DNA of 64,000 nucleotides from Eudromia elegans. Taxonomy: Eukaryota; Chordata; Aves; Tinamiformes; Tinamidae. Location of the stretch: contig PTEX01000055.1 in assembly GCA_003342815.1 (NCBI GenBank), positions 62,001 through 126,000 of the forward strand, read 5' to 3'. The position numbers and the translations under genes were made by a program. Below, piece by piece: positions 1,953 to 62,100 of this stretch. Position 1 is the stretch's first letter. Each line of letters opens with the position of its first letter. The notes beneath the pieces were generated by a model that saw nothing but the letters and a program-made list of their open reading frames with translations, did no database searches and had not been told where the DNA came from.

Positions 1953-2013
1953 TTGATATAGTAGGGCACTTTGTTGTGTGAAACAGATCTCTGCCATGGA
2001 AATTGTACTGAAG
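1953..2013 (-). CDS. UTRN: Utrophin exon (DMD exon 62 equivalent), hinge 4 and start of WW domain
   Basis: This 61 bp exon is the same length as dystrophin exon 62. After the split Thr codon it reads [19 protein letters not shown], ending two bases into an Asn codon. The acceptor is tttatttcctcag and the donor CAA|gtaagt. PW-(x)-R-(x)5-NKVPYYIN is the first strand and turn of the WW domain, which with the following EF-hand and ZZ regions binds the C-terminal PPxY motif of beta-dystroglycan. The second WW tryptophan would lie in the next exon, which is outside the window. In dystrophin the Dp71 promoter, and in utrophin the Up71 promoter, is reported in the following intron. Confidence 0.96.
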
Positions 2014-5011
2014 CTGAGGAAATAAACAGAAGGTAATTATTAGAAAACACCTGTCAAATAAAAAAGATCCAACTATCCTTGTTCCTTTTGTATAATTAAC
2101 AGAGCTATAATAAATTAAGTGGGAACAACTAAAATTTCCCAGACAAGCTTACAGTAATTAGAAAACCAGCTGGAGAAAACAAAGGCAATGTATCAAGATG
2201 ATTTTAGCCATATATTACATGCCAAGGTAAAAACAAAGCAAACGTGGTGATACTACTCCGAGGAAGGATAATAAATTCCACACACGCGAGCTATCCATCC
2301 TGAGCACACGGAGACACCAGTTCCCCTAAGTGTCTCCACTACTATAACTAAATTCCGTCAGCAAAACAAAAAAGAAAATAATCTACATTTTTATTAGTTA
2401 GAGCCTTTTTGCAACTCAAATTAATATTGATTAACATTGTACAACTGACAAAAAAGAGCATGTAAACCCTGTCTTTGTACCCTTTGCTGAACAGCAGTGA
2501 TCTCTGCAGGATTTATGCATGTCGGATACATCAACAGATCCCATCCATAACACCCGGAAGGCTTCTACATACTGAGATACAAAAGATACAAAGCTGTACA
2601 CTGCAACACAATTGTCCCTATTTAGAGATCTCAGGAGATCTAGAGAGGAAGAAATGTACAGGCCCACAGGAGAGCAGGTACACAACTTAAAAGTGGGTAT
2701 TTATTGAAGGTCTGCAGGTTCATATACATCCTATGGGGCACAGAAAAAAAATGCTATTTATAATAAGAATTAATTGGTAAGCAAAAACCATTAATGACTA
2801 AATGCTCAAATACGGCTAATATAAACTAAAAGGTTCCTCAAGTATTCATAATGATGAAGAGACACATGAAAATCAAGCAAATAGGTGAAGGAAATACCAA
2901 CTCTGGAGTTTCATTCTTTAATGCTGCAACTTGGCATCTATGGTTGCTGAGGTTCTACTGAACTAATTATGTCAGCTAACTAAGAAAATAATTCTGGCCA
3001 CACTTTGCTTGGAGTTGACTTATTTTCGATGAAGAACGAAAAGGTATTCTGCACCAACAGAATATGAACCAAACAACCTAACAAATTCATGTCAAATGTT
3101 AATTATTGCGTAGCAAGTGATATTATATTTATTTGGGAAAAACCTTCCTAAAACACTGCCAGTTTATTGTGCTGAATGAATTTCTGCAAAACGAAATTCC
3201 TGGTCATCTTTAAAATCAGTTTCACGATGAAAACTGGACGAGTAGCTACAGATTCTGGCACTCAGTAGGAGTGCTGCAGGCCTTAGTAAGAGGCTAGACG
3301 TTCTTCAGAGATGCTTAAGACAGGGCAGCTGAAGGCATGTGGTGGTATCTGTCTGTCGTTCTTTGCAATATCTACCAATATGCAGTCTAGACACCTTCCC
3401 TTAACTTTTGCATGTAACGGAGAAAAAAAAAGTCCTCTCAAGCCCCAAAGATGCCCTAAACAAGGCACACGATGGTCACTTTACAGTCTCTTTGGATGTA
3501 ACTCTATGTGCATTTTCTCCAGCAAAGAAAAAAACAATTGAGAAATTCCAGGTCTCCTTTGTCCCCCCTGCTGCTCATTCCAGCTTTTCCCAATGGCAGT
3601 CTACCCCTTTGCTCCATCCTGATAATATTATAAAAGATATTTGTAGTGGCATTTGGCTGTAAGCCAAATTAAGGAGATGATCCCAAGTCAGGGTAAACCA
3701 AATCAGCCATCCTGGCAAGCTTCCAAGTTTTATGTAAGGATCCATTCACGAACCAGACCAGTCACCCCAAGGCGATGCAGTGGTCTAGGTGAGGAGAGAT
3801 TATCAGGGCGCAGAACTGGAGGCAGGAACTTCTCAAATCAGCTCAGCTAGGGGAAACTACAACTTACTTCTGTTGCTTCCTAACCTCTATTAATTACACA
3901 ATCCAGACTGACTGGATTGCTAGCATTTTTTAATGGTGCCTCTATATACTTGCATTTGTAACTTATTACATAGGCGTACTTTACAGGTCAATATTACGGG
4001 TTTGAGAGGAAAAGTGCTATAAACCCACAGTAGCAACAGTACATTTCAAATCAAGTTTACATATACAAAAAAACCTGAAACAAAACAACAGAAGTATTTT
4101 TAAAGTTTTTGCTTTGTTCTGTCATTTAAACATGGGAATAAACCCTCCAAGAATTGCTTTGTGTAAGCCCTGCAGTATTTTAAATACTCTGCACATCATT
4201 TACCATGCTGTTCACCCAGAAGCTGCTTGTCAAATTGAAATAGGAATACTGTTGACACATAACTCAAGAAGAAACCAAGATTTACTTAATATGTTAAATT
4301 ATATTAGCTATTTAGCTAATACAGCACATATGGTGCTTAGGATATCTCTGGGACAAAGCTGCTCATTTTTATAGTCATTTTTCAAAACTCTTGAATTTCT
4401 TTTACCACTAATATTGAAGCACTCATTTAAAAATTGGAGAGCTGCCTGGGTTAACACCGTGTATCATAAACTTTGATGATGGCAGTTGTGCTAGACATTC
4501 AGAAAATCAACATGGATCTTGATATTACCATCTATCTATCTGTAATGAATAAGTCAAAATGAGAATGAGCAAGTTAAGCATCTGGTTGTGCCTTCTCCTA
4601 GGAATACTCATAGACAACAGGCTTATTTCTCTAAGAATTTCAAAGAATAAAAGAAAGAGAAGCAAGAATTTGTCTCAAGAGGAGATAAATTCAAGAGACA
4701 GCAGCCAGATCTTGCTGCAAATGCTGACCAAGAACAAACATAAGCAACCAAGGGTAGAATTATAACTCGGGGGATAAAGAGGTGGTCCCCTGAGGGAAGC
4801 ACATCAGTAAGGAGCTCAGCAAAGTTACAAACACAGAGGTTGAACCACCTCCACAGAAAGAAGGATGCAAATAATAACAAAGAGGAGGAAGAACCTTTTG
4901 TGTTTCAGACAGGGTGGAACCTGGGGGGCAGTGACTAAAGGAGATGCCATGTTTGAGATAGCCTTGGATGCAGACGTTTCTCAAACATATCAATTCATTC
5001 AAAGAACTTAC
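2014..5011 (-). other. UTRN: Intron between exons 61 and 62
   Basis: This is 2,998 bp of AT-rich intron bounded by a gtaagt donor and a tttcctcag acceptor. Open frames are short and resemble no known protein. I saw no repeat or regulatory element I can name. Confidence 0.9.
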
Positions 5012-5090
5012 TGGAAAGGAAGTGCTGTGATGCAGGCCCAAAATCTCTGTGTGCCTCCTGCAGCTGTTTAAGGCGATCCTCTACTGACAC
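5012..5090 (-). CDS. UTRN: Utrophin exon (DMD exon 61 equivalent), end of rod and hinge 4
   Basis: This 79 bp exon is the same length as dystrophin exon 61: 26 codons plus one base. It reads [20 protein letters not shown] then SQHFLS, with the last base joining the next exon to make a threonine codon. The acceptor is ttatttgtag and the donor CCA|gtaagt. The segment finishes the last rod helix ([14 protein letters not shown]) and enters hinge 4 ([12 protein letters not shown]), the flexible link to the WW domain. It was found by splice-site and homology reasoning. Confidence 0.96.
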
Positions 5091-6452
5091 CTACAAATAA
5101 ACACACATCCACAAAATTTACATCACATTTACTTTGTAACAGCAATAAATATAGTGGCTTATGTTTATTTTGGTTAAATGAAGTAAGGTTGACTTTGTGT
5201 CACTTTTTTTACCACCCAGCCATTCAAAGCTCTTTTTTTTGTTGTTGTTGCTTGACAAAAGTCTCTTGCAGTGTTCTTGTACAAGTAGTGCAGATCAATA
5301 ATGAACTGGTGACTACAGCTGACCACTGAAATTTCTGAGTCCCTTCCAACCCTCTCTTTGTCCAAACTTCCGTAGTCAGCAGGTCTCACTTTGATTGTAT
5401 TGATCTCACAGCTGCCTTTCCAACCTGGCACAATTCTGGAAGATACCGCTTCACTGGCTGATATGACTTCCTCCTGTTTACTAATTAAACTGCACTAGAA
5501 CATGCAAGGTTTTGGCTGCTTAATTAACTCTCTTTAAGGATATAAATTCCAATATCAAATTATATTAAGAGCGGGAAGAACAGATATGACCCGTTAATGA
5601 CTTTGTCTCTCAAGAGAGACTGATTCAGAACTACTAGCTCCAAAAGCTGACATGTGAGTTTTTGCAAAATTCTCTTCTACCACACAGGCAAATGACCCTC
5701 CAGCCACAGTTATTTCCAAGACTTTATATTCCCCTTAGGAGTCAGGGAAAGTGATCCACAAAAGTTGATACACAATAAATATTTACTACAAAAAGGAGAG
5801 TGAAAAAATGAAGATCTCTAACTGAACTTTAAGTGGTGTAAGCAGCTTTACTAAATCATTCAGTATGAAACTGTAAATGAGTTTTAACTGTAATCAGACA
5901 CATTTCAATTTACTTTTCTTCAGATCATTTTAACACCAAAGAACATAACCAAGCAATATGAATCTTGCTTGGACCAGCCCCTCTTCTGTTTTATAAAGCT
6001 AAACATGCTATTGCTCACATCTTGTTATAGCTCTTACTAATACTTAAGTCTCTTCAAGAGAAATTCCCTGCAGAAACTGTATAGTCAGGAACAAAACAAA
6101 CCGACTTCCACATAGGTTGGAAACAACAGAAATATGCAGGCTGGTTTTCAACAGCAATGATTTATGGAGTAAAAATACTACTATAAGGCTGCATAAAAAA
6201 AGCATGCAGCAGAAGTCTCCAGAGATTAATGCAGTCTCTTGAGTGAATAAACTGCTGAGGCAGCCAAAAAGGAAAGCTACTGGTCAAGACGGTGAAGGAA
6301 ACACGGCTCCCTTTGCCGCTTCTGTACTGCCAGAGTAACACCTTGAAGGGAGAAATATTGGAAACAGTGTAACAGCATCTCTTAGGGGAGCAGAAGGGTA
6401 GGAGTGGAGTGTTCCTGCCACCCACCCCGACCACGTGCATTCAGAAACGCAC
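5091..6452 (-). other. UTRN: Intron between exons 60 and 61
   Basis: This 1,362 bp intron is the shortest in the window and is bounded by gtgcgt and ttatttgtag. It contains a short T-rich tract near 5230. A brief run near 5338-5352 (gagtcccttccaaccct) recalls the 3' end of some CR1 copies, but it is too short to call. Confidence 0.9.
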
Positions 6453-6599
6453 CTGTAAAAGCTTCCACCGCATGTTAAGATCATCTAACTGACGAGACAT
6501 CTTTAATGATGGATAAAGGTCCAGTGGAGAGAGCTGACTGCACAAATCATTCACTGCTTTAACTTTCAAGTTGATGGGAGCAATTTCTTCTCTAAAAGC
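6453..6599 (-). CDS. UTRN: Utrophin exon (DMD exon 60 equivalent), last spectrin repeat
   Basis: This exon is exactly 49 codons (147 bp), matching dystrophin exon 60, with both ends at codon boundaries. It has no long open frame around it, so it would be missed by an open-frame length filter. It reads [20 protein letters not shown] and on to [19 protein letters not shown]. The acceptor is ctcttgtag and the donor CAG|gtgcgt. The terminal [12 protein letters not shown] is the hallmark of the last helix of the final rod repeat, before hinge 4. The stretch [17 protein letters not shown] differs clearly from dystrophin (SPYNLSTLEDLNTRW) and identifies utrophin. A cysteine replaces the serine I recall in the human protein at VNDLxSQL. 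Confidence 0.97.
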
Positions 6600-8614: not shown

Positions 8615-8883
8615 TGCAGTTTTCTCGATATGATCCTGTAATGAATCTATGAGCAGGTCTCCCACAGGTTTCCAGCCATTCCTCACGTTTTCTGCCTCCT
8701 TCAAGTCAGCATCAAGGTCATCCATGGCACACTGCAAGTCCTTCAGTTTTTCCAGTGCTTTGTCCACTTGCTTCTGCCAGATGTTGGCACTGGCATTTAG
8801 GTTCTCCCATTTCTCCTTTACCTCTGAGGAGTGCTTACGCATAGCTTTGGCGATTCGCAGGGCCTTCTCCTCAGGGCTCAGTT
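8615..8883 (-). CDS. UTRN: Utrophin exon (DMD exon 59 equivalent), spectrin repeats
   Basis: This 269 bp exon is identical in length to dystrophin exon 59 and is the longest in the window. Two bases complete the Glu codon, then 89 residues' worth of coding runs from [20 protein letters not shown] through [20 protein letters not shown] to [16 protein letters not shown]. The acceptor is gtcctctgcag and the donor is GCA|gtaagt. The two Trp residues (EKWENLN and NGWKPV) mark the end of one spectrin-like repeat and the start of the last one. The [11 protein letters not shown] block is common to utrophin and dystrophin; the flanking [16 protein letters not shown] is utrophin-like. The exon ends on a complete codon. 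Confidence 0.97.
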
Positions 8884-11868
8884 CTGCAGAGGACAAAAGG
8901 AAAAAGTTTGGCTGCTTAGTTTTTGTCTTATTCGCATATAAGCAGATTAAACACTTACTAGGGAGAACAGTCAAGAAAGTTTGTATCTGATGAGCCCACA
9001 GTCAAGTGTTAATTTATATCAAATGGAACAAGGGAGCAGAAAGTCCACATAGCTGTAAATAAAGTAAACCTTAATTATTCTTAACAATAAAATACAGCTA
9101 TGCTAGCAACAGACAAAAATTCCTGCTTTGCATGTGTTATGATATGCATGAAACAAAGGCAGATTATTGCTGGTTTTGTTGCTTGGGAAGAACAGGAGAA
9201 ATAAAAAAGATGATTCTTCTCTATTGGAAACTGTAGTAGCAGTTTGGGGCCATTTCATGTAGAAAGAACAAAAATAGTGCTGCCTTTTTTTTTTTTTTTT
9301 CCCCCTGGATCAGTTACCATCTCCCCCACTCTTTTTTTTTTTTTAATTTTAGATGAGTTATCATCATATCTCCAAAATGTCTCCTATTCTACTGATGGGT
9401 AAAACACAACAGTAACAGTCTGAAAGCGCCATGGGGAGCACTCTGGTAATTCTAAATCTATTTTTGTGTTAACACTCCAAAGGCTGTTTAGGTATTTCAA
9501 ATCCAAATTGAAAGAGTTGATCTTCTGCAACACTGTTTCTCCCTGAGTTGCAGCTTAAATGCTTATATTAATTCTCCGTTCCCCAGGGAGCTGCAGGAGC
9601 CTGGACAGCGCTCCACACTCGAGACACGTCCGCCCTCTTGGACAAGCAGCAAGGAAGGGTCCCACATAGAGCCTTGGGACACAAGCAACACGGTAACACA
9701 AGGCACTGCCGCTGCCTCTCCCAGGTGTCTGAGACTGAGCAAGTCAGAAGGAGAAAAGAAAACCCCAGCAGGTCTTGCTCACTGACACTCAGGGTGGCCT
9801 TGGCACAGAAAAGTCACAGGGAGACCCTTTCATTGGGGAAGGGTAACTTCAGTAAAGGCAAACAAACAAAACCTGGCCCAGAAGGTTCCCTTTCTACGCC
9901 AAAACCTTGCAGCTTCTGAAGGCAGAGGAAAAAAACACGGAAAATGTGATATAGTGGAAAAATCTGGGAACAAAAGAGGGGGAGTGACATGGCATATACC
10001 AGAACTAAGCCAAATGTTTTCTAGTCACTCTCTAGCGAAGAGCTCAGCTTTTAAAAATGTTTTTTTGATTTTTTCAGGAAAAAAAAAATTAGAATGAAAA
10101 CATTTTTCAAATGTTGTCTATGAATAAATTAGGTACACAATAGAAAGATGAAAGCATCGCTTTTGTTAGAAGTCAAATGAGTCACACAACCTTCTATACA
10201 CTGATCTGTAGTGCTTAATGTTATCACCATAAATGATTGAACTTTGTCTAGCTCACCTTTGGAGAGAAAAAGCAGGCAGGGGAAACTGAAAATTTTAATT
10301 TTGGAAGGTTAGGTGAATGTTAAAGTAAAAACTACACTGTTATGAAAATCATATGACTAGGCATTTGATGATGAAATTATTGTTCCATAGGTCCCAATAC
10401 TGGAAAATACGTAGGAAACAGTTAATACAACATGCCTTTTTTTTACAGATGTAGAAGTAACATGAATTTGTTTGGATAAAAACAGAATTTCTGTCAACCA
10501 CTTCACACATTTAATTACTCTCAGCTTTTTCAGATCTTGTTAACCAACAGTCTTGATACCTGCGAGACTACGCACAGAATATTTAGCAACAGACTCTGGA
10601 AGCAAGCTGAGGAAAGAAATATGGGTTTGGATTTGTTTTTTTAAAGATGCAAGTGCTGCATGAAGGCACAAAACAACCTGTTAGGAAGAGAGTTCTTAAG
10701 ACGTTTTGCCTACGGTAACCAGATGAGAACAGGAGGCAAGAGCCATCAACAAGAGGAAACGCCACTGAGAAGACACCGACGGACACCTAGGCGGGAAGTT
10801 GTAGAGCACATTTTGAGATCTAGAATTGTAAAAGTTCTTCCAAAAAAGCTCCTGCCGTGCCCTGTGCTCACTGAACATAGCCATGCTCAGGGACACCCAA
10901 TGGCAAGAGGATGTTCAGAAGAGCAACTCAGGAGGAACAGCTATGACAGAAAGCTGTGATGCTCAACTGGATGCAGAGGAATATAAATTATGTAGGTAGC
11001 TCTGGAATACAGAGATACGGAAATAAAACACAATCTGTGACACTGACAGACCAGAATGAAGATTAAGACCAAAGATAGGCTGTGATAAATTGTGTCATGT
11101 CTCTCAAACTCCAGGAATTCACAATACAATAAACTATACCAACAGACATTACAGCCCTAACCTTTCAAAAATTTTGCAGATTTTGTAAAAAGTAAAAAAA
11201 ACCCAGAAAGCTTAAATTGTAAAAAAACCCAAAAAGCTCTTACAGATAAAAACTACTTTTTTAGACAAGGAACAGCTACAAAATGCTTTCTTAGCGATAT
11301 CAATGAAGTTACCACTGGATTTTATTTAGGAATCACTCCCAGCTATGAATACTAATATGCCATTTCTAAAGCAGTGATACCCAACTACAGCCCAGTGAGA
11401 AGGGGCCAGCTCAGGTGTGGCTGCAGGCAAGGGACCTGTGGTGGCAGCATTCAGCACAGGAGGACGCCTCAAGAGTAAAGGCTGCACAGCCCTAAACAGG
11501 GAGCAAGCCTGACACTGGGAAGCTCTGCACAAAGAAGGGCAATATTGGCCTTGTACAAATGCAACAGAAACACCGTGTTCCGTGCAAGTAAACACCACAC
11601 ATACGCAAACTGCACTCTGACACTTTTAATCAAATGTCATGCACTTCATCATCATCCTTCACCTGATACCAGACCCCAGAGCTAAGAGCTTTGCCTGCAG
11701 GATTAGCAAGTTAGAAGGCTTTAATAGTTCTAAATCAGATGACCAACAGGTCATGGAAGATCATAGTCCTCTTGACAAGGAGCATCTAAAATCTCTACTA
11801 AGTGCTGAATCTCTCTTCCTGCAAACACATTAAACTCAATGGCTGCTTCTCTCTCCTTTAATGAGAAA

Positions 11869-18254: not shown

Positions 18255-18384
18255 CTGTTTTTGAATGTAAGCTCCTTCTTGGTTCCTCAGGCCCCTCAAT
18301 GGGCTGGTCAGCAAGAAAAACCCGTGCCTGGTCCACAGCATTGAGAATGGTTTGTTCCTTATCCTTCAGTTCACGTCTCAGTGC
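18255..18384 (-). CDS. UTRN: Utrophin exon (DMD exon 58 equivalent), spectrin repeat
   Basis: This 130 bp exon has 43 complete codons plus the first base of a glutamate codon. It reads [20 protein letters not shown] and on to [23 protein letters not shown]. The acceptor is a T-rich tract ending gtaaaag; the donor is CAG|gtcaga, weaker than the consensus. The dystrophin counterpart is 121 bp, so utrophin carries three extra residues here, in the loop around [11 protein letters not shown]. Human utrophin, as remembered, has a very similar ADQPIEAPEEPRRNLQSKT stretch, which supports UTRN over DMD. It encodes the middle of a rod repeat and is isolated between a 22.6 kb intron upstream and a 9.4 kb intron downstream. 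Confidence 0.95.
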
Positions 18385-18615
18385 CTTTTACAAAAGGGAA
18401 AAAAAAGGCCATTTGTAGCCTGATGTTGTGACCAACAGACATTATCACATTTTCTCCATTTTCGCCTCTCTGATCGGACCTATCCACTGAGTGAATAATA
18501 GCCAACATTTAATTCAGAATGCAAGATAAAATTTACATTTTACAAAACAGAAATGTCAAGAAATAGATACAGGGTAGAGATCTTTCTAAAATTAACTTGA
18601 TGAAGTGAACACAAA

Positions 18616-38700: not shown

Positions 38701-40948
38701 AGCACTTTGCATGAAACAGTCACATCTCACTCTCCATGTAAAGCTTCCATCTTAACCCAGGAGCTGGGTGTGCATTCTGGAGAGAGCAGCCTCAGTGCAG
38801 AGCAGGTGACGGCGGCCAGCGACCCCAGCGCAAGGCACGGCAGCACCCATAGCAGGGAAGGAGTCAGCTCAAATGCTTTATAAAGCAATCTGCCAAAGGG
38901 GCACATTTGGCACAAGAGTTCAAAACCAAAAACAACAAAAAAAGGAAAGAAAGAAAATATCACAGGCATAACATTTACAGGGATCCCTCCCAAAAGGGCA
39001 CATTTATTCCACATCCAAACCATACCAAGCACCTAACTATACAGAGGAAGGGGAAGAGGTAGCTGCAAAGTGTTTGGGTACCTTTTCCCTCTCTCCTTTC
39101 CCTTTCAGTTTTCACTTTCAACCTGAGAATATACAACTTTTCAACTGGATCCAGTTTACTAGTAAACTGCAGCTTCAGTGAAGCAGTAACAGTGCCTGTT
39201 ACTGAAGAGCCGCCCTACAGAGAAGCAAATCAATGGAGAGATTCAATCTATTTTCCCTCCTCTGTGAATCAGTGATCAGCACCAGCTCACAGGAGAATGC
39301 TTCATTCATGAGACAGCACATGCTGGCGGTTGGTACCTGGCACAACCCAGAAAAAAATCATATGACACAGTGGAATCCCCGCATTCCTGAAATAATGTTT
39401 AGAAAAGAATTGTCCAGTCTCTGTGTCAGAAATATCTGCAACCAAATACTGCACACTTGCCCACCGAAATGTACAGAAAACACGACAAATGCACAGGGCT
39501 ATTTTAACTTTGTTTTGTTGCAGTATATTGATAGGGCTCCTATTAAATACTGGACTGGGACATCTATAATCTAATGTTAACAGTAAATGCAAAAGCCAAG
39601 TGACAAAAGAATATGGTCTTTCTCAAAAACAAAAGGATAATCTCTTGGAGCTCCTGAATGCATGTATTCCACACGTATTCCACAAGGTATTAGCTTTACC
39701 TTAACCTATAACAAAAATCGTCCAAAATATTCCTCTTTAAAACAAAAGAATAGAGACAAAAGAATAGGGCTTTTCCCTCCCTCCCACTGCTGCAGTTCAC
39801 TGGCATCACCCAGGAGCCATCTAGCATCCTTGTTCCTACAATCCTTGAATAAGAACAACCATTTCTGAAAATCAGTTTGAGGTCTTTAAATGAGAGCCGC
39901 CAGCAGTACTTTTTGTTATGATCAGCTATATACTATAATCCAGCATGAGACATGCACAGACCCTTAGAAAAGGATCTGTACAGACCCACCATCTCTCACT
40001 GGATCTGTTCCAGTCTTTTAATACTCTTCCACAATAATAAAACAATGTCTGATCATTACAAAAAGCTCAGAGCAGATGTGCCTACAAACTGAGCGTGATG
40101 ATTTAAGTGGAAAACAGGAAGTGATGAGTTCTCAAGAAACAGCAACCCTGTGTTTATGATAATAATTCATTTTAAAAGAATAAATTAGGAAGAAACATAT
40201 GCAGATTTCTTTAAACTCTTGTATGTTGGAAGTAAGCCTCAAAAACATTGCTTATGAATGAAACTGTCCAGTGGCAAATATGTCCCTACTTGATTATTGA
40301 TTAGAGTTGGTTACACAGACTTTATGTTCTACATAAATGAGAATACATTTTAGATGCAACACAGATTTTGCTGTCAAAAGCAAACTTACAAATTAATAGT
40401 GTAACATGAAGCATGGTGGCACGGCATTAGCAAAACCAGACAGCTGAAACACCAGTACAGGTAAGCCTGAACTTACTTCTTCAAACACTTTTGAGTCATC
40501 TTTGTAATATAAATCTGCACTTGAGGCTGGGGAGACCCTCTAATACTGCTGATATTACTAAAACATAGAGGCCATCTTGCATAATTCTACTGAATTTACA
40601 TTCACGTTGTTTTTGTAACTCATGTTCATTTCTAACTTACACAGGTCTTTTTTAGCCTTACTTGGACAACATCTATGCCTGCTGGGCATCCAAGAAGATC
40701 AGCAAACAGGTCACAAAGCAGTTTTGAGCTAAGCATATGCATCAGAAACTATTCTGAAACATTTTTAAAGGAGATATCTCAGTTGCGCTTTGGTGAGAAG
40801 CTAATGCAAAAGGAGTGAAGATCTACAGCAAAACATTTTTCTAAAAAATAAACACTATGCTAAACTGTTTATCATCTCTTCCATATGTAAATCCACTTCA
40901 TCCTATCCTTTACAGTAGCACTTCTATCAGTACATTTTAAGAACTCAC

Positions 40949-41105
40949 TTTGCAATGATCATACTGTTGCTGTAAGGTTGGAACATCCCCTCCAATGGGC
41001 ATTTGCTTTTTTAATTCTTCATCTTTTGTATTCAGCCATTTGATTAACTCTTCCAGGGATGTCAGCAATCTGTTCCATTTCTCCGCACTAGCCTCCAAGT
41101 GAGCC
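40949..41105 (-). CDS. UTRN: Utrophin exon (DMD exon 57 equivalent), spectrin repeat
   Basis: This 157 bp exon is identical in length to dystrophin exon 57. Its first base completes the arginine codon begun in the previous exon, and it then reads [20 protein letters not shown] and on through ...[18 protein letters not shown]. The acceptor is gttttgcag and the donor is AAA|gtgagt. The Trp in AEKWNRLL and the heptad-like leucines mark helix A of a spectrin-like repeat; PIGGD is a motif shared with dystrophin (QAPIGGDFPAV). It forms part of the distal rod, which in utrophin and dystrophin spaces the actin-binding end from the dystroglycan-binding end. The exon ends on a complete codon, so the next junction is phase 0. 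Confidence 0.96.
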
Positions 41106-44100
41106 CTGCAAAACAACATAAAAACATTTTTAAAGCCTTGAGTGTCATAAAAAAGAAAGGGATTGAACTAAAAAATAAGAACATTCTATCATTAGGGTAG
41201 GAAGGTTTCAAATATTTAACTGCAAAGAACGTTTGATATGTTAAAAGAACCTACATTTCTAAACACTTTCCACAGAAAACGAAAGTAAGCAGGGAGAGGA
41301 AGAAAAACCAGGATAACAAACACACAAATATACACTTGCTGTTTGGACCTACCTAAAACCTTGCAGACTCCACACCTGAGCAACACAAAGTGATTTCTTT
41401 TATTAGGAACCCACTCCTGCAGTGCACAAAGCATGAGCATCATTTTGTGAGCTGAAGCAGCACAAAACCAAACTCTTTAAAGCCAGAACCTGACTCTCCA
41501 GTGCCGAACGGGAAGATTCCTGAGGAGCGAGTTCACTGTGCTGCTGCAAACATCAGCATCCCGTTATTTAACACATCCCTCTAGCTGACAACTTGTTACT
41601 GAAGAAGTAACTCAGGGCACATCTGTCCCCCGGTGAAGTGCACAGCCTTTCCAAACTTCAGCACACTCATTTCAAGCATATTCAAAACTACCTTGATTAA
41701 ATGGTTTCCCTGCAGCACTATCTTTGGTCAGGTCCAGCCATCCCACTTCACTTATTCAGTGCTCTTATGGATTTCATTTGGGGACCAGAAAACGTATTGT
41801 TAGCTTGTACCAGTACAAAATGACTGATTTTACCACCCAGGCGATGGAGAAGACCTGACTCTTTTTCAGCATAGCCTGACACTGACTCTGCACCTTCCTG
41901 TCTGCTTCTGAAGGCTGAATGAACCCAACTTTTCTATTTCGTCCCCTCGATTTTCTCTTTTCTGTTTTACATGTCACTTTTTATTCTTTTTCTGAATCAC
42001 TCCAGCTTGCATTTCGGCACTTTCAACTGCTCTCTCTGCTTTTATCTGCTTAAATGGCTGCTCCAATGAATTTGCAGCTGGTTTGAAAGGCTGCTGCAAG
42101 GCTTACTTCAAGGCAAACTTACGTTTGGGTAGGCTGGCATTTTTCTGGGATAGATGAACAAGTAAGTAGGCAGTAAGAGTGTAAAAGAGTAAAAAGGACA
42201 TACAGAGAAAAAAAATACATCACTGTAACAGTAAATGAAGAACTAGCTTCTGCAAGAAGAACCCATTCTCCTGCTCTGCTCTGTTCAGGAAAGTATGTAG
42301 GTAGTTACTTGAGAAAAAATTTACAAGTAAATGCTGGAGGTGATGTTCTTTTGCATACAGGTTTCTGCAAAACTGTTTCTATCTTCCCTTGTTTCTGCCA
42401 CTAGTATCTTTCTCTCTGCTTGTAGCCATGGGTTAAAACCAGCTGAGCCAGAGTCCTCCCTTCTGGCATCTTCTGCACAGCCGTGGTCCAGGGTGTCTCA
42501 ATTCTAGGGTAAAAATGGACTTTCTCAGCTCTCTTCTCACCTCTTTTCAGCTCTTCAATGCTTCCTAACCAGAACTGCATTCAAGGCACCTTCCTTGCTG
42601 TGCTCTTAACCACATCCGTGCAGGCAGTCACTGCACAAGGTACTTAACTCCACTGAAAATTTACACCCTGAGCATTCGCAATAATTAGACCCTCCAGCTA
42701 CCCGCAATAAAACATGATCATACGATTTTTTTAAAAAAACAAACCAAGATTAATATGTTTATATCCAGAGTTCTGCATACATCTGAAAGTAAAATCTCTT
42801 CCTCATGACTTCTGACTGTATCTAGGAAGGGGAAGGAAGCAGCTCTCACCTCTAAAACCTGGCACGGTCTGAAGCTGCATGATTCCGTTCTAATTATTTG
42901 GCTGAATTCTTGTATACAAAATGAATTAAAGTTTTGAAAGGGCAGAGGGGAAGTGGAACTGTTACTAGTTAGGTGTTTAAAGAACTCTGTAATGGTGGCT
43001 CACTGTTAATTTAACATTCCCTGCAATAACGTTAACAGTGAACAAACTAATTTGGCATTAATGTGAAGGATGCAGCATATAATACTAAATTAAATTCATT
43101 GTAATTTACCCTGATGAGTATTCATGTACCCATCAGATTAACAACAGAAGCAAAACACTAGTTTATAATTTCGAAGCCCTCTGCAAAGCAGCCTTCAGGG
43201 GGCAGAGAGGGGGTGCAGGAGAGCAAAGGGACTGCAAAACCCTGCTCTGAAGACACAGCACCACCCGGGCCAGAAAAGTTAGTAAAGGGGGAACCCCAAA
43301 TATCAGCTTGTACCTTGCCCAAATGGTGCCCTTCCAATCTTATCCATGTGACAGTGAAAATAAAAGAGAGAGGCAAGAGCAGCAGCAGTTGAGCTGAGCA
43401 AATGTTCAGTGCTCCCGAGGGACAGGCATGGATCTGCCTAGGAGAAAGGGTCCCTAGATATCCTCCAGACTACATTTCAGTGCAATGTGTTAGTGGCATG
43501 TGTACGTTTGTGATACAGGCATTATCACAGAGTGAGAGTTAACAAACTATGCCGAAGTTGGGAAATGTTTCCTTCTCTGCTTTGGAAAAGCACCTTTCTT
43601 GCCTTGTTTAGACATCGGGGCTTCTATCAACACACAGTCTGCAAGCAAAGCTTCAAGTGCTCGTGTCCCTGTGACAAATAAATTGCCAATTTTCAGGGAC
43701 TTGCCGGGTGCAGTGATGGCCTAACAGTCTGTCTACTTTGATAAAAAGCTATGTTTTGAGCACCAGTTGCAGCAATAGTATTCCCCAGCATCACCCTCCC
43801 TGTATTTAGAAGCACTCCTAGTAGCATCTCAGCTGAGCAGGAAAAATCCAGGCTCTCCAACAGGCTGGCCAGACCCAGAGCACCCTCTCTCCATCCCGTG
43901 TGCCCGGGCAGAACAGGACCTTGTAGAGCAGCAGCACTGACACGGCTCCCCTTGGGCTGACCCTTGACAGCATGCACCCTCAGCTTTGGCTTCTCCTATT
44001 TTGGTAACACTCTTCCTGCTAAGCGACAAGGGAACACATGGACTAGGAAAGGTTGGTGGCTGGATGGTCTATATCTAGAGAATCCTCTGCTTCCTCTCAT

Positions 44101-45611: not shown

Positions 45612-45784
45612 CTGATGTTGGCTGACTTGGCCTTGAGGTCGTTCCAGCGCTGGTTCATGTCGTCAAGGCGGTGCTGGAGCAGAGCCGCTTCCTCGGAGTT
45701 TCCCAAGGCTTTCACCATCTTCTGCCTGTTTCCGTCAATGCTTTTGAAGATGTCATTGTGGGCATCGATCTCAGCCTGGATGTC
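45612..45784 (-). CDS. UTRN: Utrophin exon (DMD exon 56 equivalent), spectrin repeat
   Basis: This 173 bp coding exon is the same length as dystrophin exon 56. It begins at a full codon ([15 protein letters not shown]...) and ends two bases into an arginine codon (…KAKSANI-R). The acceptor is a pyrimidine-rich tract ending tttcag and the donor is CAG|gtgagt. The peptide is alpha-helical and includes [19 protein letters not shown], with the Leu/Trp pattern of the third helix of a spectrin-like repeat. It belongs to the distal rod and corresponds to DLQGEIEAHTDVY... in dystrophin. It is the first common exon that a G-utrophin/Up113 or Dp116-type transcript would use, because promoters for those isoforms sit in the intron upstream. 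No anomaly is seen. Confidence 0.96.
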
Positions 45785-48700: not shown

Positions 48701-51159
48701 TGCTCCACTTGCAGCGTTCACTTTCCAATAGCCCTCAAGGAGGGAGCGAGAATTAGGGCACGAGACGGGCATATGAGGGCGGCTGTTGCCACAGGAATGG
48801 ACACTTTCAGTGCTCTCTCCTTTGGAAAGCAAGTGATGGGAGGGAGAGGGAAGCAGTTGTAAAGAAGAGACTGTTAAAAGGAATTCCCTTGTGTGGGGGG
48901 AATTCGGGTTTCCGTGTCAGCCAGGGAGCCTCTCCTCTGGCTTCAGGAGAGGCTCACAGCCCTGCAGTGAGTGCCAGCTTCAGAAAAGCTCACCCCATGT
49001 GCTGCACCACGCGGGGGCTCTCGCTGCTGGGCAAGGAGCTTACGCAGAATCCACGCTCAGGAGAGCAGCCGAGATGCAAAACACTTGGGCAGAACTGCCC
49101 TCATCATAAATCCACCGCTGGCAGAACCGTGCTTAAGGGAAGGCATTAAACCTCTCTAAAACGACAGATGTGGGGCCACACTGCCCCTCAGCACAGCCAC
49201 TGTGCCTACGGGGTAAGAAGGACCAAAGCAACCTGCAAAAGCAATTGGGTTGAGAGGTGGCAGAAATTCAATCACTACTTACGTTTTTACACAGTCCAGG
49301 AAGAAAAACACCTTTTTTTTTTTTTTTTTTTTTTTTTTGGATTTGGGGGGTGGGGGGCCAGGGATAGGGAGGGAAGCCTTCGGGTATTTCCCATGTCTGT
49401 TTTTCACACGCTTTTATTACCAACAGTCTTGCACTGCAGCTCCAGGTTTCCAAAAAGCTGTCTTGACTTGCACTTAAATTTAATAGAAAATACCTTTACA
49501 GGTGACATATGGTGTGGGCAAGGGCTCTTTTAATCATGAGGACACCCATGCACTTAAGGCTGAGAATGGCAGCCTGTGTTTGACAGCTTCTGTGGCTGAG
49601 TCACACGGCAGAGCCCGAACATCTGAAGGGCATCATAAAGCCATTAACACTAATTGCAGCAGGCACGCAGTGGCACAGAACAAAGCCGGGCAGCCCAGCC
49701 CACTGGAACGTAACACGACTCTGCTTTTGCATAGGAAGGGGGTGTCCCACACGCTTGTGCAAATGCCATCTGGCTCTGCACTGCAACCACAGGAACAGCA
49801 CTTGTAATTCTCTCCTTACGACATACATTAATGGATACCAAAAGTTAGGGCGAGCTCGCGAGCCGGAATCACTGCCATAAAGCTGTTTCTCCTGGCAGCA
49901 AACGCCGCAGCAAGAAGGAACAGGATGGGTGTGTGGGAAGTCATGTGAGGGAGAGACAAGGCAGGGGAGAGGGGAACTTGCTCAAAAAAATTAAGAAAAA
50001 AATATGGAAATCTTGCTCAATAAGCAGTTTCTGATCAAAGTTCAGCAACAAAAATGTTAACATTCTTCTCCAGCACCAAAGCATTCTCCTAAATCATGTT
50101 ACAAACTCCAGCACAATAGGCAAAACGACAGTAAGCTTTAGGCTAAAAACCACGGCAGTTGTGAGATTTGTAAGTTGTGCTTTTGTTGAGAATTGCTACA
50201 ATCAGTTCCTTTGACAAGAAATAAGACTCTGGCGTATCCAGAATCACAGAGGAGAGCCTGGAATTTGTAAACGTCAGGGCTTTGTATAGTACAAAGCAAT
50301 TAAGAACATTGGTAGCAAACCTTCTCGACAGCACAGTGTTAGGAAACGGCTGCAGCTTCGAGACACGGGAGGAAGATTTAAAAAAGAAAGAAAAATAGCA
50401 CCCTGCCCTCTAGCAAGTGACCCAATCTTCAAAGACTAAGAGCAGCGATGACAGGAGGACAGGGACGCCCGGCTGACAGAGTGGGGAGAGGAGAAAGCGC
50501 CTCACCCAGCAGGGAGGCATTCACGCCGCACGTGTTTTCACCTGCTGTTACGTTGGAAAACACCGGTGTTTAGCACAAGACCATTTTTGGTAGAGAAGCG
50601 TACTGCAAAAGAAACCAGAGAATACAGCATGGAAAACTAACTAGAGGATTACAGATTCACGACTCGGGTCTCCTCTGAAGTGCTGACAAGTGGATGACGG
50701 CAACGTGCCTGAGAAGCTTCCTGTCTCCATCCCTGTATCTAGTCAGTGCAGTCGCTGCACAGCCAAGGCTCCTGCCCCTCAGCACTCCTGCTGCCAAGCC
50801 TCCTGGCAAGAGGAGCAGCACTAGACTGGAGAAGGCAAGAACAGAGGGAAGACGTGGAGACCTGGCACACTCGGGGGAAGTTACTCTACTTATAAAACCA
50901 GCACATCTTCCAATTCAATTAAGACACTTTTCAGACAAATTTAACAGCAAATTATGGAACTCCTTCTTTGTGTGAAGTGATATCACCAACACCTTGGAAA
51001 GCCCCCTTCAATTTATGGCTCAGCAGAGCCCCAAACCTTCCTTCACTCGCTTCAAGGAAGGGTCATGATCGGAGTAACTGCTCTAGGATGAATCCTGTGG
51101 GACTTGAAATGGGCAAGGAGGGCAGCATGAGCCTTCCATGCGCGGGAGGCAGTCGGAGA
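45785..51159 (-). other. UTRN: Intron between the CpG island and exon 56
   Basis: This is the 5' flank of exon 56. If the candidate first exon at 51276-51326 is real, this stretch is nearly all of its 5,491 bp first intron. It is mixed in composition and becomes more GC-rich from about 48.2 kb towards the island. A 26-base T tract lies at 49313-49338. No spectrin-like coding segment was recognised. Confidence 0.8.
49313..49338. repeat. T26 homopolymer
   Basis: Twenty-six consecutive T are followed by a G-rich stretch (gggtggggggccaggg). On the minus strand this reads as C-rich sequence followed by poly-A, which might be a retroposed tail, but no element body was recognised. Confidence 0.93.
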
Positions 51160-52680
51160 AGGGGCGCGCAGGCACCTCCGCCACAACGCTGAGAACAAAC
51201 GCAGGGCTTTATCGCGGCCTGAGCTCGTCGCTGCACGCGTCTCAAGGCAGGTCCGTGGCAGGGCCCCTTCCGTACCTTCTCAAACCGCGCCAGCAGGTCC
51301 CGCAGGCTTAAGGTCAGGCCGATCATGACGAAGCGTCCCGCGCAGGCCGCATTCTCGCGGAGCGCCTCGCGGGCCAGCTCGGCAGCGTTGAGGACGCGCA
51401 GCCGCCCCGCAGCCCGCCGGCATGGCGCCCCGCGGCACCCGCGCGCGCCCCTGGCCGAGCCGAGCCCGGTGGGCGCTAGCCGGCTCCCATGGCGCCGCGG
51501 GCGGCCACGTGGCCAGGTCGGCCCCCGGCCGCAGCGCCTCGGCCGCGGCCTCGCGGGCTCCGCGCTCTGCTCTCAGTTACCCTGCCTAAGAGCGGCGACG
51601 CGCTCGCAACGTGCTGAGGAGGAGCCGCTCCATCCACGCCCAGCCCATGTAAGGGAGGAACGAAGAAACGAAACAAAAACGCCCCAGGAAACTCCTGCAC
51701 GTGGAAAGCTCCAAAGGCAGCGTCGCAGGGCAGCCCCGTCTGGATGGGGCAGGCGCCAGGCCGGCAAACGAGGCAGTAGCACTGGACTGGAGGCCACCTC
51801 GTCCCTCCGTGCCGGTCCCTTCCTGGGCCACGCGCCGGCTGGCGGTGCTAGGGCAGTAACCAAGCCGCGTCCCAGCTCCTCGACGGTGTGCTCAGCCCAA
51901 GGGATGCTGCAGCTCCGGAGGAACCAGGCCCAGCAGAACGAAACTTCAGCAGTTGCTCCCTTTGTGCAGGCAGGAGTCTCCCGCGCAGGATCACGCCGCC
52001 ACCGCTGAAATCCTCGCTGGGGACCTCACCCTTTGGTCCTTGCTGCTCTGGCAGCAGCGCAGGAATCTATTCCCAGCATTTGTTTATTATTGTAGGCGGC
52101 ATCCTCCCTTCCCGCACCCCCGGTGCAGGCTCCAGCCGAGCGCACTCCCACTTCCTGGAGGCCTCCCTCGCGGAGCAGCCTCCACGGCCGCCTCCGTGCC
52201 GCTGGGGAGGCCGCTCTACACACCCGGGCCCGGGCGCTCGTCCTGCGCCCGCAGCAGCGCGGCACGGCCGGGCGCTACCCGGCCTTCAGGCTGCAAAACC
52301 CAACGCGCGCTCGCGGAGCTCGCGGCTCGTGCCCGCGCCGCGCGGCTCCCCACACGCGCAGATTGTTTTCATATGAGGCCTTTGCACTCCGTCGGGCAGG
52401 AAACCCGACACCTCCGCGTTGGCTACTAGGAAATCACTGGATTTCAAATCATTCCCACTGGAAAGCGCGTGTGCTTCCCGCACGAGCGCGGCGCTCCGCT
52501 GGCAAGCGCCCCGCGCGCTGTCGCCAGCCGCCACGCAGCGGGAGCGGAGCAGGGCGCCCCGGCACCCTCGGGGTGCGCGCGCTGCCTCTGCTCTCCGTGC
52601 CCCTCACCACAGTGTTGGTGAGGGAACGAGTAAGGTCCCGAACGACAACGCGGGCTTCAAAACCCTTCCCGGCTAATGGA
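51160..52680 (-). promoter_or_regulatory. CpG island, probable internal utrophin promoter
   Basis: About 1.5 kb of GC-rich, CpG-dense DNA stands out sharply in an AT-rich intron. It has two cores, roughly 51.29-51.90 and 52.10-52.68 kb, separated by a less GC-rich stretch. No TATA box is obvious. A GC box (gggcgg, 51499-51504) and an E-box (cacgtg, 51506-51511) lie about 180 bp upstream of the candidate ATG on the minus strand. Its position between exons 55 and 56 (dystrophin numbering) fits the promoter of a short isoform of the Dp116/G-utrophin type. Several long open frames on both strands in this island are a by-product of few stop codons in GC-rich DNA. Bidirectional transcription is possible but not shown. 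Confidence 0.65.
51276..51326 (-). CDS. UTRN: Candidate alternative first coding exon (G-utrophin/Up113-like)
   Basis: A 17-codon open frame starts at an ATG (51326-51324), reads MIGLTLSLRDLLARFEK, and ends at a splice donor AAG|gtacgg. It stops at a complete codon, so it joins in phase 0 to exon 56 at 45784 (…FEK-DIQAEI…). It sits at the downstream edge of a strong CpG island, 5.5 kb upstream of exon 56 and in the intron where dystrophin carries the Dp116 promoter; G-utrophin is the described utrophin counterpart of Dp116. Codon use is coding-like: third positions are mostly G or C and second positions are often T or A. I do not remember the published G-utrophin N-terminus, so sequence identity is not claimed. 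The frame stays open upstream of the ATG, so the true start is uncertain. It could also be a non-coding leader. Confidence 0.5.
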
Positions 52681-55269
52681 TTACACCCGCGCAGTCAGTA
52701 CGGTTTGAGATCTTAAGGATAGGCTTTTTGGGAAAAAAAGTATATACATAGGCAGCAGGATTTTACTTTCCCAAGTTATACTGATCAACATGTTGGTATG
52801 GGTTTTTGCTGGCACACTGCACAAACTGCAAATGTGCTTGCCGGATTAGCTAGGAAGCGTCCTCTCAGAAGAAGGCACAGCTAGGATAATTTTACCGCTC
52901 AGCTGACAGGCAGTCCCAAGCTGTCGGAATTTATTCCACTGCTGACGGAAGCAAACAGCCCCGCTATGAGTACAGCAGGAGTTAATCCTGCAGCAATCAC
53001 GGATGATTTTACTTGCTCCACATATAACCTCACTCACAGGCTTCATCTCTCACCCGCTTATTTCACTTGCAGCATTTGCTAAATGTTCGTGCTCTGACAC
53101 TTCCCCAGCAACTCAGGGGAGTTACTAACAACAGCGACTGCCCGTGCAGCTGCAGACGCCAATGTACTTCTCTCCCTCTTCTCTGTTCTGTACATCCCAT
53201 ACGTTTTATGTTCCTCAGAAGATTTGAAAAGCTTAAAGGAGAGCCTCTTAAAATCACCACCCAGTAAAGTCTCTTTCCAGGCCTCTGAAATCCGTGACAT
53301 CTCCACTCTGAAACGAAATCTACACTGTGACTCCCAAGTGACTGCGAGTCCTGGAGGACTCTACTCCAGCCCAGAGCAATCTGCCGAGGTTTGCAGGTTA
53401 GTGACAGGAGCAACCAGGCAGCTGCTGCTCTTGCTACAGCATCTTCCAAGCAAACTGAAAACCCACAGGTCTCTGTATTGGAGAAGAGAACAAAAACTGT
53501 CGCACACAGTAGGAACAAACTCCGATGTTGTCTGGGCTATTCCCGGCGCACCCGCTCTGGCAGGGCGCGTGGGGACGCATGCCACGCCGCTGCAATTTCA
53601 CCTGATTTGTCTCCAAAATACCATCCCCTCCTCTCACACTATCTAGAGGCGCTAAAAACACATCACTAGGAAACACTTCCCAGTTAAAATGAGCACAATG
53701 CCTGCCCCAGTTCCCCAAAGGATCATCCTCTGTACATCCTTTTTTGTTTTTCTTCTCCCAAAAGTGATCTCATGCATTTTGCAGCACCATGCAAGCACCT
53801 CAGCGTAGAGACCTGGCGTGCAGCACACCCACCAAGCCCAGTCCGGGCACCGCAGGCCAGCAGAAGGGCCGTTCCCTCTCTACGAACCATCACAGGATGG
53901 TCACAGGAAGCCCAAACAGGAGCAAAGAAAGCATGCAGGCAAAGCACAACATGCCGCCTCCCAGCACACCTCGCAAAACCCCCTCAGCCCTCCCTGCGTT
54001 CGTGTAGTCCCACCACGGTCAGTATGAAAACCATGCACTGAAAATTAAAGTCATAAAACCACTTCTATAAAATACAGCAAGTTTCTCCTCTTTTTAAAAT
54101 GAAGGCTCATTTTAAACTCTGTAACGTCATGTAGTGGTCCCTCCTAAGATTGAAAACATACACTAGACTAAAGCAGTGAATTAACCAAGGTCATTCTTCT
54201 CTTTTCTATATTGACCCTTTAAGAAGCCAAAATCCTATTAGAGTGGAAGAATAAGTGTCCTGAAAAGATGTAACTATTTGAGAATCCCTCTTTTCTCTTC
54301 CTACAGGAGGGATAACAAAGCTCTCATCCACGCCAAGGCTCCTTTCTGCTCTTCTGCCAGCAGAGAGATGTGAAACAAGCAGCAAGCTGCATTTAAGTGC
54401 ACTTGCGAGTTGCCATTACACACAAAATGAAAACGGATGTTGGACTGGATTATTATGAGGCTACACTGACTCCAGGACTGTATCCAAATATTCACATGAA
54501 TTTTATGTTTATTCTCATTCTTCATCTTTAGAGAACTGTAATATGTTTCCCAATTTCCTATGTTATTAAACAAAAAACAACTTACATTTCAGATCCTTCG
54601 AAACTGCAAGTTGTAATGGTAAATACCCTCTGAGGTGGATGGTTACCCTTCTGCAGAATTTTATAAAGATTTTCAAATATCTACCTCACTGGATTAACAC
54701 TTCCAGCAAAACGGCTTTGAAGACTGCATTAAATAACAACTGTTCCATAGGCTTTTTTTTTTCCACATAAAAAAGAACCTTCAGTATTTAGAGAAATTCT
54801 ATATTTGTGGAAGCACAGCTAAAATAAGCTCTATGTTGACAAGCGTTTCATACAGCCCCTACAAGCAAAGCAGTTCTGTGACAACGTAGGATCCAAAGCT
54901 CCTGACAGCATAAGCTCTCATGCAAGAACACACCCAGATAAAAGCAAGCTCACCAGCAACATACTCGAAGAGCGTTTACTTCCAAAATACTTTTTGCGAT
55001 ACTAAAAATCCGCAAATGGAAATTAATCCAGTGAAGAGTAAATTTCTACAACATTTTAACACTACTGCAGAGGATGGCGCATTATGGAACTTTCTAATCC
55101 GTTTTGATACCAGACCATTTTCTCTAGCAGCTTAAATAATAGTATGAAGTAGGATAAAAATAATGTAATCAGCTAACAGTGTTTTATATCCATTGGTGAC
55201 ATATCTAAAGAAAAACTACTTAATGCAGAGATCATGACAAAAAAAAAAAGGTATTTTTATCAATGGTCT

Positions 55270-60046: not shown

Positions 60047-61779
60047 TTTGAAATCCCAAGACATCTTCTGGTTCATTTGTCACCTTTTGATATTTGACTC
60101 ATCAACTCCCTAAAGTCTGAGTCTCAAAGGCAGCATAGAAAGGTAAGAAAATATATTCCTAATAATAATAATCCATGCTAGTAAATAATTTGACGATATA
60201 CAAAGCAATAAATACTAAAATAATTAATCACAGAATCTCATTATATGGTTGACCCATAACAACCTCTGCTGAGCAAGGCAAGGCATGCTGCAGTCAGTTG
60301 TTTGGCAGCCAGAACAGCACCTACTGCTATCAGCTAAGCCATGCTACATAAAACGAAGGTTCTTTTAATTTTTTTTTCCATAGCTAGCAGGCAAATAAAG
60401 TGAGCAGGACTATCAACTATCAAGCAGACCTTCACAAAATATTTTGTGCATCAAAAGCAGAAGGAAAATTAGATGGTTCGGGGCTCACTGGGTTTCTGAT
60501 TTTTGAACTTTAAGTAATTGGATTTTTCCAATTAGCTTGTCTACTTCACATCATTTCTCATGTGCTTACCTGCATGTGCACTGAACACGTAACAAGATAA
60601 AAATGCTTGGATTATATAAAACTGCTTTTTGAAAATGGAAACAGTCACAGTACAGAAATGCTTAAATGAATGTATTCTAAATAGCTCACGTAAAAAGCCT
60701 TAAAGGGCCAAGTTGTGATCAAGGACCATAAATGCTCAATGCTGATGAGCAATGCTGTTTTTAACCAAAACAAAAACGGGCACAATCTTTTTCACCTTCA
60801 TTGGCTCACGCACACAAAGGAACAAGAACATTTCCAACACAGGGATAACATGTTGCTGCATTACACATCTCTCTTTATATGTATGCACACTGTCAATAAG
60901 CTAATTGTATTTTGATACGTGAGACAAATGCCAAAAAAGTAATGCAAAACTTCAGGTTAAATTTAAAAAGGTAGCGTCCAAATTGCTCAGATCAAAAAAT
61001 AATTTTGTCCCTAAATGAAAGTCAGCTTGCACAGCAGTTGTAAGGTGTGAGCACAGACAATCCCCACTCAGAGACGGACTGTGGTGAGCTGGCAGAAGGT
61101 TCTTTCCACTTTACTGTTCCTTTTTTGCTTGCTTTTGCCTTCTAGGTTTACTGCCTTCGGCCTAGCTTCTCTGAGCAGCATGTAAAGGAGAGATGGAAAG
61201 TGCCTGGCCAGAGTCCACTCTTAGTTAGACTGAGGAGACACTTCTGGGCTCATCAGGGTTTGGATTTACGCACATAGAAAGCCTGTATTAATGCCTGGCT
61301 TATAAGCAGGCTTTCTCTTCTGTAACTTACTCCAATAACTGTAGCCAGTTTACTGGACTCCTTTTCTGGCCATGGGTTGCTCGGTGCAGAACCTAGAAAA
61401 CAGAGGGGTCCCAGAGATGAAGGCTGGGCGACCTGCAGCACTTGGAACTCAGCCCAGGTAGGAAGAGCAGCGCTGGGGCTACTGGAGGCTTTTGTCAAGT
61501 CCCTCTGCAAAATTCCTGGGAAACTAAAGCCTGTTATAGGACGAGAGAGGAGAACTAGCATGAGTTTTCTCACCACATTACTAAATGCAGAAAGTCGCTG
61601 GCAATAAATACTGTTCCAGGCATACACCCATGAACGGTTTAGAAGCTGGAGGCGAGCAGAGCAGTTGGAGGCAAGGCTGCTTATTCAAAGAAGAAGGAAC
61701 AGAGAGTGGGAAAACTGGAACCCTACTCTTGCACACGTACGAAAGGGGAAGGGAAATGCCCAAAGCCGCTGCACCCGCT

Positions 61780-62100
61780 GTCTCTGTGGGCCCCAAAGCC
61801 TTGGGGCACGCCATGGACGTTGCTTCCCGGCTCTGGGACGACGCCGACGAGGGCAGTGCTGGTGAGGAAGGCCCAGCAGCTCGGATGGGCCCGGCGCAGG
61901 GAGGCTGCCTCGAGCTGCCCTGGGGCGCAGCCTCTCCCTCCGCGTGTCCCGCGCGCCGTGGGGCGCCCGGCACTGCCCAGCCCAGCGCGCCCGTCCCTCC
62001 GCACCGCTGCCCAACCGCAGCCACCCGATGCGCCCGTCACCTCCGCGCACGCGGCACCAACCAGGAGGCTCACACGGAGACCCCATCCGGGGCCCGCTGA
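61780..62100. promoter_or_regulatory. Second small CpG-rich patch
   Basis: Roughly 300 bp are rich in G, C and CpG (for example around 61840-61860 and 61940-62060), surrounded by AT-rich intron. Open frames cross it on both strands, but none resembles a family I know. It could be a weak CpG island acting as promoter or enhancer, or a fragment of a GC-rich repeat. No splice donor with a convincing coding frame was seen on the minus strand. Confidence 0.35.

Follow-up and report, generated by a model that had tools for sequence, protein, structure and literature searches.

Utrophin is a leading stand-in for dystrophin in research on Duchenne therapy, and the short utrophins have the same C-terminal partners as the full-length protein. 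Short utrophin isoforms have reportedly been described, in a paper from 2003, in mice without full-length utrophin. Among the closest described systems are two short proteins, one encoded in each of the two genes. According to passages of PMC5664101 and PMC1790709, dystrophin Dp116 is produced from an internal promoter in the intron equivalent to utrophin intron 55, and its first exon, S1, splices to exon 56; an earlier sequence-only reading of the locus described here had correctly named the Dp116 promoter in that intron. The utrophin counterpart is G-utrophin (Up113), for which a passage of PMC5664101 gives a leader of 48 residues. In PMC1790709, the first exon of G-utrophin is described as exceptionally conserved across vertebrates and as related to the first exon of Dp116, and the leader peptide as strongly helical. 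The lists of short utrophins differ between sources, with Up140, Up113, Up109, and Up71 in the passage of PMC10789850 and only Up140, Up113, and Up71 in that of PMC12664987.

The stretch of DNA analyzed here, which is referred to as the window, comprises 64 kb of a bird genome and contains utrophin coding exons on the minus strand from exon 56 to an exon which we take to be the start of the WW region (Table 1). Exon 56 is identical in 58 of 58 residues to the bird utrophins P0012 and P0013; its first codon, GAC, begins at 45784 and is preceded by ...GATATTTCAG. Six exon translations from the window are closest to the kiwi Apteryx owenii among ten proteins compared (314/321 residues), followed by Bubo and Callipepla (both 308/320), which hints, short of a phylogenetic placement, at a palaeognath. 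Between the utrophin exons there is an assembly gap of 965 N at 7127-8091. Neither exon 55 nor the sequence further upstream in the goose record P0031 had a match in the window by tblastn; intron 55, with its upstream bound taken from the gene structure, therefore spans from 45785 to beyond the end of the window, which is more than 18 kb.

Table 1. Features of the utrophin locus in the window.
Feature	Position	Strand	Basis and remarks
Upstream ATG	51490	minus	4 codons, strong Kozak context
Upstream ATG	51423	minus	47 codons, out of frame, overlaps leader
Upstream ORF	51323..51352	minus	9 codons; its TGA overlaps the leader ATG (ATGA)
Alternative first exon, coding part (MIGLTLSLRDLLARFEK)	51276..51326	minus	Best profile match in window; ends in phase 0
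GT splice donor AAG/GTACGG	51274..51275	minus	4.11 bits
CpG island (putative internal promoter with 5' UTR)	50851..53000	none	GC 0.63, CpG o/e 0.91, 191 CpG
Utrophin exon 56, acceptor exon	45612..45784	minus	tblastn and sequence; phase 0 at start, ends KSANIR
Next utrophin coding exon downstream of exon 56	40946..41107	minus	tblastn span, approximate edges
Utrophin coding exon	18256..18387	minus	tblastn span, approximate edges
Utrophin coding exon	8615..8917	minus	tblastn span; true 5' edge probably nearer 8885
Utrophin coding exon	6450..6599	minus	tblastn span, approximate edges
Utrophin coding exon	5010..5090	minus	tblastn span, approximate edges
Utrophin coding exon	1955..2017	minus	tblastn span

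Within intron 55, the minus strand from 51326 to 51276 reads ATG...AAG, encodes MIGLTLSLRDLLARFEK, and is followed by GTACGG. The sequence-only reading had described this frame of 17 residues with a GT donor at a codon boundary, together with a downstream exon 56 on the same strand that starts at a codon boundary, and both descriptions are borne out. The leader exon ends, and exon 56 begins, in phase 0, so that the two exons join in frame. At this place, a profile built from 12 distinct leaders in the database scores 51.6, compared to 22.3 at the second-best place in the window; the best scores in simulated sequence were 32.1 for 40 first-order windows with the composition of the window and 36.8 for 40 sequences of 60 kb with the composition of the CpG island. 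With a simple donor matrix, the leader-exon donor reaches 4.11 bits versus 8.47 bits for the donor of exon 56, in agreement with its previous description as usable and not strong. Its score is equaled or exceeded by 0.85% of the 3861 GT sites on the minus strand of the window, and among the 18 GT sites in 51000-51600 it is the sole one to reach it.

The leader exon lies in a CpG island of 2.15 kb. While the island itself had been recognized from the sequence alone, it had been placed directly upstream of the leader; the exon is in fact located inside 50851-53000 and not just downstream of it. By analogy, this island would have internal promoter activity. The upstream ATGs at 51490, 51423, and 51352 could damp translation if transcription begins upstream of them. 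The overlap of the upstream ORF starting at 51352 with the leader ATG is a reinitiation-like arrangement. A second, weaker CpG-rich stretch is present in intron 55 at 61471-62360 (GC 0.54, o/e 0.73, 48 CpG); among the tblastn matches listed, none in this stretch is a credible match to a G-utrophin leader.

In database proteins, two distinct leaders precede exon 56, one of 17 residues (MIGLNFSLRELLTKFEK-like) and one of 48 residues (MQILRCLQKCGKLKMM...KLCK). A first protein search, in which the query consisted of the upstream frame, the leader, and exon 56, yielded 84 proteins from 1079 candidates, which were grouped by the sequence preceding DIQAEID. The 48-residue leader MQILRCLQKCGKLKMMAVVRTSLQKVVVLLHRLQRMAVSSPRYQKLCK or variants of it, some of them shortened, were found in 41 of these proteins and the 17-residue leader MIGLNFSLRELLTKFEK or its variants in 15, three of which carry a few extra residues in front; the others have exon 55 (7 proteins), other sequence (9), or no exon 56 start (12). 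A second search for shorter proteins (21 from 32 candidates) added four with the 17-residue leader and three with the 48-residue leader, one of the latter being shortened. Of the resulting 19 records with the 17-residue leader, those other than P0173 are from a marsupial, a bat, a marmot, teleosts, a sturgeon, a gar, a ray, and a chimaera, and some of them are numbered predicted isoforms, namely X7 of Sarcophilus harrisii (P0002), X7 of Mobula (P0009), and X5 of Callorhinchus (P0014). The 48-residue leader occurs in mouse, birds, a lizard, and fish. Salvelinus alpinus (P0006, P0044), Lepisosteus oculatus (P0011, P0050), and Paramormyrops kingsleyae (P0017, P0187) have one record of each type, which indicates that the two leaders are alternatives within a species.

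The window leader belongs with the shorter type. It is a MIGL leader of 17 residues directly preceding DIQAEID, has the same length and phase as the 17-residue leaders, and is identical to them at 9-13 of 17 positions. M1, I2, G3, L8, L12, and E16 are invariant in all 19 of these leaders and L4 is present in 17 of them; all seven residues are retained in the window. The bird leader is unlike at least 17 of the 19 at positions 5 (T, mostly N in the others), 6 (L, mostly F), and 10 (D, mostly E). Isoform X7 of Sarcophilus harrisii thus resembles the window exon in its leader of 17 residues, the phase-0 joint to exon 56, and the six invariant positions, and a computed size near 109 kDa would likewise be in common with the MIGLNFSLRELLTKFEK-like isoforms; the bird leader differs from them by T5, L6, D10, and A13. 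The proposal of an alternative first coding exon for a short utrophin at this locus, before exon 56, is supported by the 17-residue leaders found at the same junction elsewhere. Its assignment within utrophin can be made with high confidence on these similarities: the window exon would be orthologous to a second alternative first exon that lies in intron 55 of utrophin and is distinct from the exon of G-utrophin. The locus is very probably a real and anciently conserved alternative utrophin start in a bird. No 17-residue leader was found in records named as bird, reptile, or amphibian across three protein searches, in which clustering at 90% could hide such records. This absence says little, since the two forms, of 955 and 986 residues with a shared body, could merge in 90% clusters. 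The bird case for the 17-residue leader rests on this single window.

A few features would also be expected of an ancestral exon that has decayed and is out of use in this bird lineage, namely the departure of residues 5 and 6 (T, L) from the usual N and F, the suboptimal donor, and the presence of upstream ATGs. Such decay is nevertheless improbable, because nothing is broken in the ATG, the frame of 17 codons, the exact length, the phase, or the donor, conservative changes (E to D, K to R, F to L) account for several of the substitutions, and the CpG island surrounds the leader exon.

The sequence-only reading had assigned the exon to the avian start of G-utrophin (Up113), and this assignment does not hold. 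Both would be alternative first exons in utrophin intron 55 that splice to exon 56 in phase 0 and lead into a nearly identical protein body; the leader of G-utrophin, however, has 48 residues, is unrelated in sequence to the 17 residues found here, and is missing among the tblastn matches judged in the window. Short utrophins with the 48-residue MQILRCLQKCGKLKMM...KLCK leader include those of the birds Pipra (P0013), Bubo (P0012), and Apteryx (P0020); its sequence does not differ between Pipra, Apteryx, and Elgaria, and the mouse record P0176 has a leader of the same kind with one difference near the start. When the window was searched for this leader by tblastn, at least the strongest matches were judged and none was taken as real. 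The best candidate for the 48-residue exon among the matches listed covers 13/29 identical residues with gaps (E 0.018) and lies on the other strand at 28 kb; the remaining ones were weaker. Insofar as the 48-residue exon is absent from the matches in the window, the known G-utrophin first exon maps elsewhere, an outcome which the sequence-only reading had itself named as speaking against its assignment; judged from these matches, the G-utrophin exon must be located further upstream or be missing from the assembly. An avian G-utrophin first exon in which the bird leader has been replaced or shortened would agree with the intron as given by the gene structure, the acceptor exon, the orientation, and the CpG island. 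It is very improbable in view of the different leader of Up113 length in Pipra, Bubo, and Apteryx, the failure of tblastn to find that leader in the window, and the three fish species with a record of each leader type.

That the leader is longer, with the upstream frame RLRVLNAAELAREALRENAACAGRFV being translated from a non-AUG start or the ATG at 51423 starting a related product, is hardly credible: the frame stays open upstream as far as the stop at 51575-51573, but it contains no in-frame ATG between this stop and 51326, and long open frames arise by chance in the GC-rich island, for example one of 261 residues on the other strand. BLAST against 191 proteins gave best E values of 5.1 for the upstream frame as a coding extension and 0.85 for the 51423 ORF, and both candidates were dropped. 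Three BLAST coverages of 87-93% (P0025, P0051, P0071) extend into the upstream stretch without real similarity.

The preferred reading, a second start in intron 55, has a parallel in dystrophin at the level of gene organization. Like Dp116, the window exon would be served by an internal promoter in the equivalent intron and be spliced to exon 56. Dp116 leaders of the MQQDQCCSPRFKLKMLHRKTYHVK type have MQ, C6, and KLKM in common with the 48-residue utrophin leader, whereas the window leader lacks such an MQ...C.....KLKM-like pattern. A search with the MIGL leader joined to dystrophin exon 56 yielded 87 proteins from 165 candidates, of which all but the bat utrophin P0004 were new. None of these 86, 21 of which start within 80 residues of exon 56, has a MIGL-type leader; a leader of the Dp116 type is present in 19, and exon 55 stands before exon 56 in 54. 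By these sequences the MIGL start looks specific for utrophin, within a search whose reach is reduced by the small number of proteins starting near exon 56 and additionally by clustering at 90% and by short-word seeding. Dystrophin exon 56 itself starts with E (ELQAEIDA) in several neoavian records, such as P0096, P0102, and P0126, and with D in the tinamou records P0101 and P0106 and the duck records P0110 and P0121.

In the proposed course of expression, the CpG-island promoter within intron 55 would start a transcript whose first exon encodes MIGLTLSLRDLLARFEK and is spliced in phase 0 to exon 56. Transcription in birds is presumed, and the analogy with Dp116 and G-utrophin suggests an internal promoter producing a short protein without the actin-binding domain. 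At about 955 residues and about 109 kDa, the resulting short utrophin would have neither the actin-binding domain nor the greater part of the rod, but would keep the last spectrin repeats as well as the WW, EF-hand, ZZ, and C-terminal parts. The leader would take the place of the start of the cut repeat. From what is established for dystrophin and utrophin, such a protein could become part of complexes with dystroglycan, syntrophin, and dystrobrevin while not binding actin through an N-terminal domain. With the body of Pipra P0013 placed behind the window leader, the computed mass is 109.3 kDa, with the exons beyond the window not being from this bird, and that of the 48-residue form is 112.9 kDa. 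These values fit Up109 and Up113, and the MIGL-type isoform is accordingly taken as probably being Up109, by computed size alone. Judged by titles and passages, Up109 was recognized as a utrophin name, among the papers listed, only in PMC10789850. The passages of PMC12664987, PMC12641824, PMC11967788, PMC10039851, PMC6032923, and PMC5547154 name no further start in intron 55. No paper was found that prints the leader strings, in a search that covered mainly papers available without subscription, and the exon may well have been described.

Further claims of the sequence-only reading concerned the structure of the leader. The leader alone is no more amphipathic than shuffled sequences, as 1255 of 5000 shuffles equal or exceed its value, and the claim of amphipathicity fails for it; when the opening residues of exon 56 are included, amphipathicity is mild (295 of 5000 shuffles reach the value). 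The idea that the leader extends the helix of the truncated first rod repeat is weakly supported by a model of P0002, which draws one helix over residues 2-44 at very low confidence (pLDDT there about 31-52, pTM 0.31). In a model of P0013, which represents the 48-residue form, the N-terminus is no better.

Primers for bird G-utrophin designed at this locus would target the wrong exon. With a second conserved start in intron 55, probes, antibodies, and knock-outs ascribed to 'G-utrophin' may mix two proteins. The MIGL leader is found from chimaeras to mammals and is apparently kept in a bird, which suggests a separate role for it. There is about an even chance that two alternative first exons, independent of each other, have been present in intron 55 of utrophin since the jawed-vertebrate ancestor, of which only that of G-utrophin has a counterpart in dystrophin, while the MIGL exon would be a utrophin-specific and hardly studied start with its own CpG-island promoter in birds.
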